Origin: Comamonadaceae bacterium
Lineage (GTDB): Bacteria > Pseudomonadota > Gammaproteobacteria > Burkholderiales > Burkholderiaceae_C
Reading direction: 5' to 3'
DNA: 38,164 nt
Assembly (NCBI GenBank): GCA_947455935.1
Contig: CANGPV010000010.1
Location: forward strand, 1 to 38,164
In this document: positions 8,459-29,057 of the stretch, piece after piece
Layout: each line of letters opens with the position of its first letter
Position numbering within the stretch: the stretch's first letter is position 1
Translations under genes and position numbers: made by a program
The notes under the pieces: generated by a model
The model's database searches: none
What the model saw: only the letters and a program-made list of their open reading frames with translations
Told to the model about the DNA's origin: nothing

Positions 8459-9460
8459 TCAGTTGATGAGTGCTTGGGCGAATTCTTGTGCATTGAAGGC
8501 TTGCAAGTCTTCCAGCTTTTCGCCAATGCCGATGAAATACACCTTCAGTGGTTTGTCATCTGGGCCCAAGCGTTGCTTGGCCCACAAGGCAATGGCCGCC
8601 AGCACACCCCCTTTGGCCGTGCCGTCGAGTTTGGTGACGATCAAGCCGGTGAGACCCAGCGCTTCATCAAACGCTTTGACTTGCGCTAATGCGTTTTGCC
8701 CCGTGTTGCCATCAATCACCAGCAGCACTTCGTGGGGCGACGTGGCATCGGCTTTGTGAATGACACGCTGGATTTTTTTCAGCTCATCCATCAGATGCAA
8801 CTGGGTGGGCAAACGTCCCGCGGTGTCGATCAGCACCACATCACGCCCACGGGCTTTGCCAGCGGTGACCGCGTCAAAGCTCACCGCAGCAGGGTCTCCT
8901 TGGTCTTGGCTGATGATTTCAACCTGATTGCGGTCGGCCCACACCAGCAACTGTTCTTTGGCGGCGGCGCGAAAGGTGTCGGCAGCGGCCAGCAAAACGC
9001 TTAAGTTTGCATCGCTTAAATGGCGGGTGAGTTTGCCAATCGTGGTGGTTTTGCCCGCGCCATTCACCCCTGCCACCATGATGACCGTGGGCTTGTGCGC
9101 TGCCAGTGACAACTCGCCTTGCAGCGGCAGCAGTACCTCGGTCAGAACCTCGGTCAGCAACATTTTCACCTGCTGAGGTTGGGTGCTGCCGCTGGCTTTG
9201 ACGCGTAACTTCAAAGCTTGCAATACAGCCTGGGTGGCGGGCATACCCGCGTCGGCCATCAACAATGCGGATTCAAGTTCTTCGTACAAAGCGTCGTCAA
9301 TGACCTTGCCGCCAAAGACACTGGTGATGCTGCTGCCCGTGCGTTGCAAGCTGCTGCGCAAACGACCCAGCCAGCTTTGGGCGGCAACTTGCGCAGCTGA
9401 TGTGCTACTTTCAGCTAAAGCCGCTGGCGCAGGGGTCTTTCGTTTGAACAGACTGAACAT
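8459..9460 (-). CDS. ftsY: Signal recognition particle receptor FtsY
   Basis: SRP GTPase motifs GVNGAGKTTTIGKL, DTFRAAAKEQL, DTAGRLPTQ, TKLDGTAKGG; start reassigned to MFSLFKRK (the longer ORF to 9895 is antisense to the M16 gene). Confidence 0.95.
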   Translation of the reverse strand: MFSLFKRKTPAPAALAESSTSAAQVAAQSWLGRLRSSLQRTGSSITSVFGGKVIDDALYEELESALLMADAGMPATQAVLQALKLRVKASGSTQPQQVKMLLTEVLTEVLLPLQGELSLAAHKPTVIMVAGVNGAGKTTTIGKLTRHLSDANLSVLLAAADTFRAAAKEQLLVWADRNQVEIISQDQGDPAAVSFDAVTAGKARGRDVVLIDTAGRLPTQLHLMDELKKIQRVIHKADATSPHEVLLVIDGNTGQNALAQVKAFDEALGLTGLIVTKLDGTAKGGVLAAIALWAKQRLGPDDKPLKVYFIGIGEKLEDLQAFNAQEFAQALIN

Positions 9461-9526
9461 AAGGTCAAGGGTTTCTAGAATGGCGAGTTGCTTGCCGTGC
9501 TGGCCAGCGTTAATTGAACCCATTCT

Positions 9527-10954
9527 ATGAAACCCATTGTGTTGACCTTTCTGCAAGCCCCATGGCGTTGGTGCTTGGCTTGGGCGCTGGCATTGACCCA
9601 GCTGTCTGCCAACGCACAAAGCGCTCCTGACGCCCAGCAATTCACCCTCAGCAACGGCATGACCTTGATTGTTAAGGTCGATCCACGTGCACCCACAGCC
9701 GTGCACATGCTGTGGGTGCGGGTGGGCTCCATGGACGAGGTGGACGGCGTGTCGGGCGTTGCCCATGTGTTGGAACACATGCTCTTCAAAGGCACGGCCA
9801 AGGTCAAGCAAGGTGAGTTTTCGCGCCGCGTGGCGGCTTTGGGTGGGCGTGAAAACGCATTCACCAACAAGGACTACACCGGTTATTACCAGCAAATACC
9901 CGCCAAGCGTTTGGCCGAGGTGATGGCGCTGGAAGCTGATCGCTTTGCCAACAACCAGTGGCCTGATGTTGAGTTTGCAAAAGAAATTGAAGTGGTCAAG
10001 GAAGAGCGGCGTATGCGCACCGAAGACTCACCTCGCATGTTGATGTATGAGCAGCTCTACGCTACGCAGTTTGTGGCTTCACCCTATCGCCGTCCCATCA
10101 TTGGTTGGATGAACGATTTGGACGCCATGACACCGCAAGATGCCCGTGACTTTTACCGCCGCTGGTATGTGCCTGCTAATGCCGCCGTGGTGGTGGTGGG
10201 TGACGTGGACGTGGCCGAGGTTAAGCGTTTGGCGGAGTCCACCTATGGGCAAATTCCCTCGGGTGTGGTGCCCACTCGCAAGCCTCGCTTAGAGCCTGCA
10301 CAAACCGGCACCCGCCGAGTGCAGATCAAAGCGCCTGCCGACCAAGCCTATCTGGCCCTGTCGTGGAAAGTGCCCAACTTCTCTGGCTTCGAACCCACCG
10401 AAGATAACCGCGACGCTTTGGCGCTGACTTTGTTGGCCGCCGTTTTAGATGGTTACACCGGTGCCCGCTTGGACCGCTCCTTGGCGCAAGGCGAGGGCCG
10501 TGTGGCCGACAGCGCGGGTGCCTCCAACACCATGAGTGGCCGTGGTCCGCAGGTGTTCATGCTCGATGGCGTGCCAGCCAAAGGCAAAACCCCCGAGCAA
10601 CTTGAGGTCGCCTTACGCGCCCAAATTACCAAAATTGCCAAAGAAGGTGTGAGCGAAGCCGAAATGCGCCGCGTCAAAGCGCAATGGATGGCGTCCAATG
10701 TGTACCAGCGCGACTCGATCTTCAACCAAGCGCGTGAATTGGGAAGCAGCTGGATTGAAGGTATGCCGCTGGACAGTGCCGAACGGGTCATGGACAGTTT
10801 GAACACCATCACCGCAGCCGACCTACAGGCTGTCGCGGCCAAATATTTCGGCGATGACACGTTGACGGTGGCTACCTTATTGCCGCAACCGGGGGCGAGG
10901 GCGTTTCCACGCAAACCTGCTGCACCTTCTCGCCACGGGGAGGCTGCACGATGA
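9527..10954 (+). CDS. M16 family zinc metallopeptidase (HXXEH present)
   Basis: Signal peptide; HVLEHMLFKGT inverted zinc motif. Confidence 0.92.
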   Translation: MKPIVLTFLQAPWRWCLAWALALTQLSANAQSAPDAQQFTLSNGMTLIVKVDPRAPTAVHMLWVRVGSMDEVDGVSGVAHVLEHMLFKGTAKVKQGEFSRRVAALGGRENAFTNKDYTGYYQQIPAKRLAEVMALEADRFANNQWPDVEFAKEIEVVKEERRMRTEDSPRMLMYEQLYATQFVASPYRRPIIGWMNDLDAMTPQDARDFYRRWYVPANAAVVVVGDVDVAEVKRLAESTYGQIPSGVVPTRKPRLEPAQTGTRRVQIKAPADQAYLALSWKVPNFSGFEPTEDNRDALALTLLAAVLDGYTGARLDRSLAQGEGRVADSAGASNTMSGRGPQVFMLDGVPAKGKTPEQLEVALRAQITKIAKEGVSEAEMRRVKAQWMASNVYQRDSIFNQARELGSSWIEGMPLDSAERVMDSLNTITAADLQAVAAKYFGDDTLTVATLLPQPGARAFPRKPAAPSRHGEAAR

Positions 10955-26153: not shown

Positions 26154-26267
26154 CAAACCTTTTTAAAATGGCTGTTAATTACATAAGCTGTTAGATTTAA
26201 AAAAACACAATCACTCGCTTTTCGTGGGTAATCGTGTGTTGTGGTGCACGCCCATGGGTGACACTTG

Positions 26268-26311: not shown

Positions 26312-28567
26312 ATGAACGCACCCCAGTCATCGGTAGCTACCGATGAAATAGATGATGAACCCATTGAATTAACGCCTTTTCTATCTTTGGCGGTGGCCTT
26401 GCTTTACATGTTGATGGCCGATGGGGAAATTGACGATCACGAATCCAGTCAATTACAGGCGGTCATCGGCGGCAACCAAGATGTGTTGGAGCTGGCATTT
26501 GAGTACGTGGAAACCACTGCCTTGGATCAATTTCTTAAGGATGCGCCACCGCTTCTCAGCAATGAAGACAAGTTGTGTATTTTGTGCAATTTGTGTGATT
26601 GTTTATTGGCTGATGGTGTTAGTCAGCAGGTAGAAGAAGAATTGTTCCAAAGTATTTGCAAGGCCTTTGGTTACTCTTCAAAATCTTTTTCCACCTATCA
26701 CAGTGCCATTGCCCTCAAAAACGAAAAATCTTTATTAGGGCCTTATGACGCCACACAACTTAATGAAGATGTCATTACGCCGCACTTGGCGATTGCTGCT
26801 TCATTGCTTTACATGATGGCTGCTGATGGAGATATAGCCGAGGAAGAAATTGGTCAGTTACAGGTGGTCATCGGAGAGTTTGAGCATTTGCAAGACTTCG
26901 CCATGAAGTATGTGCGAAAAGTGAAGATGAACCAGTTTTGTAGCCAAGTGACTTCTGTGTTGAATGCAGATCAAAAATTACTGATCTTGGCCAATGTGTG
27001 CGACTCCATGATGTCTGATGGCAAAGTGGTTGAGATAGAAAAACGCTTGTTTGAAAACTTGCTTGACGCATTCGATGTCTCAGAAAAACAATTCAGCTCG
27101 TATTACGCTCCTTTGGAAATCAAAAACTTCAAGCCATTTGGCAGCGACGAGGAAGTGAAGTCTTTGCACACCCGAAAGCGAAATCGCAGAAAAGGTGCAG
27201 GACGAAGTTTTGGCATGAGCTTGTCCCACAAGCACAGTAACGCCAACGGCAAGCGTGAGATTGATGATGCAGCTAACCAAGGCGAGTGGGAAGGTCAAGA
27301 GTCCCATGGCAGTCTGAGCGACATTGTCACGCGGACCATGCAGGAAAACATCCAACAAGTCAGCGGTACGTTTGAAGATGCTAACGATGTGGAACTGGTT
27401 GCAGTCAACGCCACAGAAAAGCTCAAACAAGATGCTTTTGCACAAGAAGGGGACGACCCCAATGTGCAAAAGATTCAAGAGCAAGCGAATCTTTCCAATG
27501 TGCAAAAAATTGGCGCTAATGGTTTCCAGATCAATCGCCAAGGTTTGGGTGAAGGTGGTTTTGCTGATAACCGTCAAGGCTTGGACTTTGCTGCTTATAT
27601 GTCGACATCACCTAATTTGGTGTCAGATATTCGCTTGGATGGCTTGCAGAAAAATATTGATCAGGTGCATGGCAAATTAGATCGGATCAATCCCAAAAGA
27701 CATGAAAAAACTGCGATCACGCCGCTACCTGTTGACCCTGTACCCACGTCTCCTAAAGTGCAGATAGATGAAGTACAAATTCGGAACACTGTCACAGTAG
27801 ACAACAGTTGGCCTGAGTTGAATTTTCAAACGGTTATTGTCCCCAAGGTTGAAAGACCTCTTCGGAAAATCCCCACAGCTATAGTTTCCAACACTATCGC
27901 GTCTGATGAATTTCCCACTGAAACACAGGCCGAAGTTTTGACAGACTTTGGCTCAGAAGTTGATTCTGTTGAGGCGTTGGCGGTACCGCAAGATGTGCCA
28001 TCTATTGCGCATGAAATTAAGTCGAATCATGAAGCAGCGTTGCCCAAGTCTGTCAGTGTTGCTGCCAAACCCAGCATTGCTGTCAAACCCAGCAGGGCGT
28101 TGAAATTTATGGGTTTGGCCACCGCCTGTGTGTTACTGCCCATGGGGGTCTATGGGTATGGTGCCCTTTACCCCACGCTCAGTTGCCAAGGACAAGCTCA
28201 GCAGTCGCGGTTCTGGACCACCGAGGGTGACACCACATCGACTGCCATGGTGCAAGAAAACCGCGTGGTTGAAACTCATCGCATAGAAATTCGTCGTGGC
28301 GAGGTGTATTTGGATAACCACCGCTTTCCCTTGTACAAAGAACTCAACCGCGATAACTATTTCGCCGCGCAAACGCCAGTGGGTTTTCACGGCAGCTACA
28401 CCACCCATGCAGTGGAAAACATGTCCTATGCGTTTGACTTCAATACTGCGACCCAAGTATTGAATATTTACACGCAATCCAATGGCATTCGTTTCATCGA
28501 GGGTGAGGTCGGTCAAATGAAGGTGAGCGCTGTATTTATGGGTCAGTGTGAAAAGCCTTGGTTCTGA
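26312..28567 (+). CDS. Tandem TerB-like domain protein with Asp/Gln-rich linker, one TM helix and C-terminal extracytoplasmic domain
   Basis: Two ~120-aa repeats (FLSLAVALLYMLMADGEIDDHE.../HLAIAASLLYMMAADGDIAEEEI...), linker, TM FMGLATACVLLPMGVYGYGALYP, then about 130-aa tail. Confidence 0.75.
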   Translation: MNAPQSSVATDEIDDEPIELTPFLSLAVALLYMLMADGEIDDHESSQLQAVIGGNQDVLELAFEYVETTALDQFLKDAPPLLSNEDKLCILCNLCDCLLADGVSQQVEEELFQSICKAFGYSSKSFSTYHSAIALKNEKSLLGPYDATQLNEDVITPHLAIAASLLYMMAADGDIAEEEIGQLQVVIGEFEHLQDFAMKYVRKVKMNQFCSQVTSVLNADQKLLILANVCDSMMSDGKVVEIEKRLFENLLDAFDVSEKQFSSYYAPLEIKNFKPFGSDEEVKSLHTRKRNRRKGAGRSFGMSLSHKHSNANGKREIDDAANQGEWEGQESHGSLSDIVTRTMQENIQQVSGTFEDANDVELVAVNATEKLKQDAFAQEGDDPNVQKIQEQANLSNVQKIGANGFQINRQGLGEGGFADNRQGLDFAAYMSTSPNLVSDIRLDGLQKNIDQVHGKLDRINPKRHEKTAITPLPVDPVPTSPKVQIDEVQIRNTVTVDNSWPELNFQTVIVPKVERPLRKIPTAIVSNTIASDEFPTETQAEVLTDFGSEVDSVEALAVPQDVPSIAHEIKSNHEAALPKSVSVAAKPSIAVKPSRALKFMGLATACVLLPMGVYGYGALYPTLSCQGQAQQSRFWTTEGDTTSTAMVQENRVVETHRIEIRRGEVYLDNHRFPLYKELNRDNYFAAQTPVGFHGSYTTHAVENMSYAFDFNTATQVLNIYTQSNGIRFIEGEVGQMKVSAVFMGQCEKPWF

Positions 28568-28571
28568 CGTT

Positions 28572-29057
28572 GTGAAATATCAATGGGTTTGGACTTGTAT
28601 CTCTTGTCTGGTTGTGACTGCTTGCTCGCAGTCAACAGGTGAAGAATATTTTTGCGAAAGTTATGCGCAAGAAAGCATGACCAATGTGTACAAGCAGCAA
28701 ATTGTCCGCTTGAATGAAAAAGAGATTTGCGTCATTTGGCCGCTCGACACTGTTCAGTGTGCTCAATTTGGCAAACCTACTCTGACCCAGTGGTTTGAGG
28801 GGAGTGATGGCAAAAGGGAGGTGCGCGGCCATCTTCAAGCGTCGCTTTCTGCGCAACAAGCTTATGTAGATATCGTGCCTTTTGTGCGTGACAAAGGCAA
28901 TGCGTCAACGGGTGTGCCAGCCCCGACTGAACATCTTGAGTTTGTATTTCGTCTCTCAGATAAAAGCTTGCAACTCACCCCTGCACAACAAGCATCCAGG
29001 GCGATGGAGTTTGTATGCAAGCCGTGGGTGAAGCAAAAATGGTGGGCGATTTACTGA
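28572..29057 (+). CDS. Putative lipoprotein of unknown function
   Basis: VKYQWVWTCISCLVVTACSQ lipobox; GTG start 4 nt after the preceding stop (alternative GTG at 28548). Confidence 0.65.
   Translation: MKYQWVWTCISCLVVTACSQSTGEEYFCESYAQESMTNVYKQQIVRLNEKEICVIWPLDTVQCAQFGKPTLTQWFEGSDGKREVRGHLQASLSAQQAYVDIVPFVRDKGNASTGVPAPTEHLEFVFRLSDKSLQLTPAQQASRAMEFVCKPWVKQKWWAIY

Follow-up and report, generated by a model that had tools for sequence, protein, structure and literature searches.

A tandem-TerB membrane protein and its co-encoded lipoprotein as a candidate auxiliary module of a DISM-kinase/OmpR-type two-component system

Organization of the locus and genomic context

The window, by which we mean the whole 38,164-bp stretch of DNA analysed here, is contig 10 of a 2.1-Mb genome that is split into 151 contigs and 84.85% complete. 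Most related public records carry titles of Comamonadaceae or Burkholderiales MAGs. The window encodes a 751-residue tandem-TerB membrane protein, hereafter BIG, and a lipoprotein gene whose GTG start codon lies 4 nt past the TGA of BIG (Table 1). An earlier note on this DNA had recognized the 4-nt gap and had given the length of the lipoprotein as 162 residues, one more than it has. In the surroundings of the operon, neither a canonical sigma-70 promoter nor a terminator exceeded the shuffled background.

Table 1 Features of the BIG-lipoprotein locus and of a candidate co-regulated operon. Coordinates refer to the window unless another locus is named.
Feature	Coordinates	Strand	Basis
Predicted operator: tandem 10-bp half-sites CGTGGGTAAT CGTGTGTTGT (26223-26242), weak GGTGCACGCC, then CATGGGTGAC	26223..26262	+	motif model
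BIG, tandem-TerB membrane protein, 751 aa, ATG start	26312..28567	+	ORF, Pfam TerB, genus relatives
TerB domain 1 (predicted cytoplasmic)	26384..26689	+	PF05099, 29 bits alone, above cut-off
TerB domain 2 (predicted cytoplasmic)	26783..27097	+	PF05099, 36.6 bits alone, above cut-off
Four units of 12-residue repeat N-x-Q-x-[ILV]-x7 (residues 384-431)	27461..27604	+	exact period
Short conserved linker helix DLQKNIDQVHGKLDR	27626..27688	+	near-invariant columns; AF2 helix
Predicted transmembrane helix (residues 595-619)	28094..28168	+	AF2 helix 255-279 of 411-residue fragment
Predicted periplasmic 9-strand beta-barrel domain, invariant Cys pair	28175..28564	+	AF2, alignment
Lipoprotein, 161 aa, GTG start 28572, lipid Cys18 at 28623-28625	28572..29057	+	ORF, lipobox
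TPR, PqqD-like, ATP-grasp, PLP decarboxylase, SIR2/urea-transporter-like operon	L195 (G000:C11 16000-35000) 7808-15834		

The gene pair is located between hrcA and tRNA-Met in the window genome and in its sister genomes. The position described earlier is thus correct for the window, but it is clade-specific; the usual neighbour of BIG in relatives is a two-component system. In relatives with a readable site, the hrcA-tRNA interval measures 0.6-1 kb and is devoid of BIG. The AT-richness that had been suspected by eye was borne out by calculation: the GC content of BIG is 46.5% (GC3 49%) compared to 54% (GC3 66%) for hrcA, and greB, gmk, and the gene of the partner kinase described below (46%) are likewise low. 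Given the interval without BIG in relatives and a low GC content that is shared with the partner kinase, the accessory insertion proposed earlier holds in the form of a clade-specific relocation or gain at the hrcA-tRNA site. A phage origin was rejected after phage records gave no match, as was a plasmid origin, because five plasmids showed weak TerB-domain matches and nothing else. The hrcA-tRNA interval seems to be variable. In locus L082 of genome G362, a secreted-looking protein of 1329 aa is encoded near BIG, after position 8623, instead of tRNA genes, and L107 likewise contains additional genes between tRNA-Met and tRNA-Arg.

BIG contains two TerB domains

The Pfam family TerB (PF05099) matched BIG with a whole-protein E-value of 1.6e-14 and a score of 54.7 bits, the cut-off being 24.4, and each half exceeded the cut-off separately (Table 1), which confirms the TerB identity proposed for both repeats. 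The acidic motif pairs pointed out earlier correspond to two conserved DG...E motifs per half in a 15-member alignment, in which D28G29/E35, D92G93/E99, D163G164/E170, and D227G228/E234 are invariant or nearly so. Profile searches of BIG revealed neither a DnaJ/J domain nor an N-terminal HTH DNA-binding domain of the CadC-like kind, but TerB domains only.

The TerB domain is common, and its function is not settled. Both N-terminal domains of BIG belong to the same family as the TerB of ter operons, and the four conserved DG..E motifs would fit a classical Ter function, in which BIG would be a determinant of tellurite, metal or phage resistance; a predicted co-regulated operon encoding a PF15632 ATP-grasp protein (see below) points in the same direction. 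We nevertheless consider this improbable, because the window genome, at 84.85% completeness, gave no TerB match beyond the two in BIG, the PADLOC defence models returned 0 families for the five proteins searched, and the searches for related phages and plasmids gave the results described above. Linked terZACDEF genes were not seen in the neighbourhoods inspected, the genome being 85% complete. In ter operons, TerB is a stand-alone protein, whereas BIG joins two TerB domains in one membrane-anchored protein that is associated with a two-component system.

The 12-residue repeat, the periplasmic domain and the lipoprotein

The short repeats described earlier in the linker (NVQKI and NRQGL, two of each) are present, although not as separate repeats: they make up a single array of four units with an exact period of 12 residues, NVQKIQEQANLS NVQKIGANGFQI NRQGLGEGGFAD NRQGL... 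(Table 1). In the proteins of 38 relatives we counted 216 such units, with N at position 1, Q at position 3, and mostly I, L or V at position 5. Runs of at least two units at an exact period of 12 occurred in 32 of the 38, the longest comprising 13 units, and shuffling the linker of the window protein 20,000 times never produced a four-unit run. Relatives of the repeat were found neither in Pfam nor in the PDB. The AF2 pLDDT remained below 50 across the repeats, which suggests disorder or a structure requiring partners; a folded repeat solenoid was rejected on the same grounds. The linker also contains the short segment DLQKNIDQVHGKLDR, in which the columns L, Q, I, V, H, and L are invariant or near-invariant and which AF2 models with low confidence as a helix (residues 99-119 of a 411-residue fragment).

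Residues 595-619, which are predicted to span the membrane, form a hydrophobic stretch preceded by basic residues. The strands of the predicted periplasmic domain that follows were modelled with a pLDDT of about 65-91. Its best Foldseek match was 1r0u, YwiB of B. subtilis (E 2e-4), and weaker matches (E > 0.004) were to lipocalin/hemophore/TbpB-like barrels. Profile matches and the AF2 model together support the architecture of tandem TerB domains, linker, transmembrane helix and tail outlined earlier.

The lipoprotein carries the lipobox VTA|C, whose cysteine is invariant together with further Cys in an alignment of 11 members. Its AF2 model is all-beta with a mean pLDDT of 83.5. Sequence searches identified no solved relatives of the tail or the lipoprotein, and the family libraries searched contained no match for the 12-residue repeat, the tail, or the lipoprotein family; all other parts of the system are of known kinds. 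The architecture had earlier been called unrecognized, and the gene pair indeed matches no family searched apart from TerB. Tail and lipoprotein share a C..PW ending; homology between the two was rejected as a sequence claim (hhalign probability 0.3%).

The coupling of the two genes is strict, as had been suspected: of 84 genus genomes, 12 encode the lipoprotein, exactly those with a window-type BIG tail (including G313, where both genes lie at contig ends), compared to 0 of the 72 others. The remaining BIG proteins retain both TerB domains and the repeats, have different tails, and are not accompanied by the lipoprotein.

The layout of the two genes, in which a membrane protein whose periplasmic domain is C-terminal is followed by a periplasmic partner, predicted here to be barrel-like, resembles that of VtrA/VtrC and ToxR/ToxS, the co-component systems described in PMC9214523 and PMC4933562. 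By analogy, the tail of BIG and the lipoprotein might form one lipid-binding barrel that conveys a ligand signal to the TerB domains. Operon order, the C-terminal periplasmic domain, the immediate downstream periplasmic partner and the predicted barrels agree with such a receptor, and VtrC was the top PDB fold match of the lipoprotein, although this likeness is non-significant (E 0.077, prob 0.47, TM about 0.3). In contrast to these systems, BIG lacks the DNA-binding domain that defines them and carries TerB domains in its place, its partner is a lipoprotein, and the response regulator is a separate protein. A co-component receptor, which can be compatible with the reading that we prefer below, thus appears unlikely.

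Two-component systems accompany BIG in relatives

TerB matches were found in 52 genomes of the genus. Two-domain BIG proteins are common, being encoded in 48 of the 84 genomes, and the other four genomes with matches have a single short TerB protein only. Outside the genus the tandem arrangement is rare, with one further case among 399 genomes of the order, in another family (L246). Free-standing single TerB proteins of about 140 aa (G330, G334, G341, and G320; L112 5166-5582) occur in part of the genus and are 40-45% identical to one BIG repeat.

In about 27 loci of relatives, BIG is adjoined by genes for a response regulator and a histidine kinase. The earlier interpretation had captured the architecture, the coupling and the insertion, but had missed this two-component regulator. 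In one set of loci, the response regulator, the kinase and BIG are co-oriented and the kinase is about 460 aa long; the other set has kinases with a 7TMR-DISMED2 sensor, most of which are encoded divergently from BIG. The BIG-like gene of L246 is divergent from a kinase that shares 41% full-length identity with the co-oriented type of about 460 aa.

In the genome of the window, the kinase/regulator pair is located on a separate contig from BIG (G000:C41 9369-12013). A search of this genome with the DISM kinase identified a full-length homologue at C41:9390-11270, directly followed by a regulator that shares 76% identity with the BIG-adjacent regulator of G354 and 53-72% with those of other divergent loci. 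The pair contains HisKA, HATPase_c, and the extracytoplasmic sensor 7TMR-DISMED2 as well as Response_reg and Trans_reg_C, which are exactly the Pfam domains of a 7TMR-DISM kinase with an OmpR-family regulator. We know of no described pair of this kind with a tandem-TerB accessory protein, and the literature searched, which did not include the main survey of Ter systems, contained no paper joining TerB domain, tellurite resistance, and two-component signalling. All checkable sister genomes have the DISM pair at the same locus, apart from BIG. In a second unlinked locus type, BIG lies beside tRNA-Ala (L100-L102) and the pair is kept elsewhere in the genome.

DISM-type regulators (at least 54% identity) were detected in 24 of the 84 genomes, 23 of which also encode BIG. 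A regulator of either type was present in 44 of the 48 genomes with two-domain BIG compared to 4 of the 36 without (Fisher p 1.6e-14; counts tallied by hand, with a p-value that takes the genomes as independent, although they are related). In G315 and G377, which are 82% and 70% complete, BIG was present and no regulator was detected. Conversely, G366 has the two-component system, while BIG was not detected; its DISM pair, at L142 (G366:C2 88000-104000) 6185-8814, is preceded by the upstream motif described below, and this genome may reveal targets of regulation in the absence of BIG.

Most of these genomes come from one genus, so that the counts are not independent, and the association could in principle be a genomic accident of shared ancestry between unrelated neighbours. 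We regard such an accident as very improbable, because the association survives rearrangement, being found in two unlinked locus types, in both orientations, with two kinase types and in a distant family, and because a predicted operator is kept where the flanking sequence has diverged.

A predicted operator is shared by BIG and the kinase

Tandem arrays of half-sites are expected for OmpR-type regulators. The divergent kinase/BIG promoters of other species contain tandem direct repeats with a period of 10, roughly YRTGDGYATT. We built a 20-bp weight matrix from ten such promoters, all of them from outside the clade of the window, and ran it over whole contigs; the sites in the window and in L131, which had been seen by eye before the motif was fixed, were left out of the scored model. 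When both strands of the window (38,164 bp) were scanned, 26223-26242 scored highest with 20.1 bits (runner-up 12.7), 70-89 bp upstream of BIG, at a score of 20 for which 0.006 occurrences per such window are expected under independent bases. The third and fourth half-sites in Table 1 were read by eye, the fourth, 30 bp further (CATGGGTGAC at 26253), being visible in sister promoters as well. The highest score of the partner contig belonged to 9270-9289 with 16.3 bits (runner-up 13.3), 80-99 bp upstream of the kinase. In every sister BIG contig and complete kinase contig scanned, the top site was upstream of the gene.

Held-out promoters of the DISM type mostly ranked first in their own contigs, including the BIG promoters of the window, L107, L108, L082, L155, and L040, and the kinase promoters of L131, L146, L149, L150, and L142. 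BIG promoters associated with the other kinase type scored at most 9.0, and no good motif was present in the promoters of L100, L101, and L144. The pattern RTGDGYWWTYRTGDG, formulated when the site in the window had already been seen, has its single exact match in the own genome at this site. With one mismatch it matched 59 times, compared to 31 times for a reversed-pattern control, indicating that roughly half of these matches are due to chance; we therefore retained high motif scores alone.

At 25.3 bits, the strongest site detected in the own genome precedes the gene for a periplasmic TPR protein, in an operon (Table 1) that is possibly a peptide or nucleoside-like biosynthetic cluster. Its ATP-grasp protein matches PF15632, 'ATPgrasp_Ter' (E 3.8e-19), a family named for the Ter biosynthetic pathway. 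The TPR protein is confined to four genomes of the window clade, and the best motif is upstream of its gene in all four. In G367, the best site (23.2 bits) is located upstream of a gene for a TPS-type secreted protein; here, tandem half-sites precede an adhesin-like gene of the TPS/ESPR two-partner-secretion kind (L145 14802-15999), which lies close to the kinase pair and is a candidate further target. Judging from its predicted sites at BIG and at the TPR operon, the DISM-type regulator probably acts on several targets, and BIG would be one of them.

These sites might also mean that BIG and the lipoprotein are a pure output of the system, for example an envelope tether or scaffold that does not signal back. 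The operator at BIG and the second predicted target operon would both be expected in this case. However, a mere target would not be expected beside two kinase/regulator types in two families of an order, nor to track the pairs in 44 of 48 genomes. We therefore view a purely effector role as doubtful, if somewhat more plausible than the co-component receptor discussed above.

BIG and the lipoprotein as a regulated auxiliary module

The explanation that we favour, with a probability of roughly 60%, is that BIG and the lipoprotein constitute a regulated auxiliary module of a DISM-kinase/OmpR-type two-component system for envelope signalling. Regulation of the gene pair by this system is well supported by gene linkage, co-occurrence, and the shared predicted operator, and the two gene products probably modulate envelope signalling. 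Binding of the regulator at the predicted sites, the sign of regulation, the direction of the signal and the ligand are what we infer from these sequence comparisons. The cytoplasm-to-periplasm direction assumed in the earlier note is one option; signalling from the envelope to the genes would fit the circuit at least equally well.

In the proposed mechanism, the kinase and the regulator encoded on C41 would control both their own promoter and that of BIG and the lipoprotein, with the regulator binding to the tandem 10-bp direct repeats. BIG would reside in the inner membrane with both TerB domains in the cytoplasm, connected by the flexible 12-residue-repeat linker and one transmembrane helix to a lipocalin-like domain in the periplasm, which would act together with the co-translated lipoprotein. 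The periplasmic barrel and the lipoprotein would sense the envelope, and the TerB pair a cytoplasmic or membrane cue, possibly a divalent metal. As an accessory sensor or modulator, BIG could then feed the status of the envelope, and possibly that of cytoplasmic divalent metals or the membrane, back to the kinase, similar to the action of DjlA on the Rcs phosphorelay.

This feedback is the weakest link of the model, and we propose it on the basis of the persistent association with two kinase types and the precedent of DjlA. In E. coli, DjlA is an inner-membrane protein with a single transmembrane segment and a cytoplasmic TerB-like domain, and its overproduction activates the Rcs phosphorelay (PMC11709261). 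It thus provides an example of a TerB-bearing membrane protein that acts on a histidine-kinase phosphorelay. DjlA differs from BIG in that it has one TerB domain, a short N-terminal periplasmic part, and a J domain, whereas BIG combines two TerB domains with a repeat linker, a large C-terminal periplasmic domain and a lipoprotein partner. The J domain is required for the Rcs effect and absent from BIG, which limits the analogy.

More tentatively, BIG may represent an undescribed, widespread class of three-part envelope systems, in which a tandem-TerB protein serves as a second sensor by means of its repeat linker and variable tail. Such systems might integrate cytoplasmic metal or membrane cues with periplasmic ones, use lineage-specific two-component partners, and have a Ter-type biosynthetic operon as output.

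Gene order, co-occurrence, and the predicted operator tie TerB to a specific signalling circuit, which turns the general question of whether TerB relates to stress into defined, testable hypotheses, and an orphan protein family would gain a testable place in envelope signalling. The hosts are free-living freshwater bacteria, some with complete genomes. Two MAGs titled Bordetella parapertussis and Rickettsia typhi (L044, L045) also have close relatives of BIG and look mislabelled. Finally, in four loci of the DISM type (L085, at 9084-10079, L086, L087, and L089), a gene with an Ion_trans domain, resembling voltage-gated channels, is located directly 3' of BIG.
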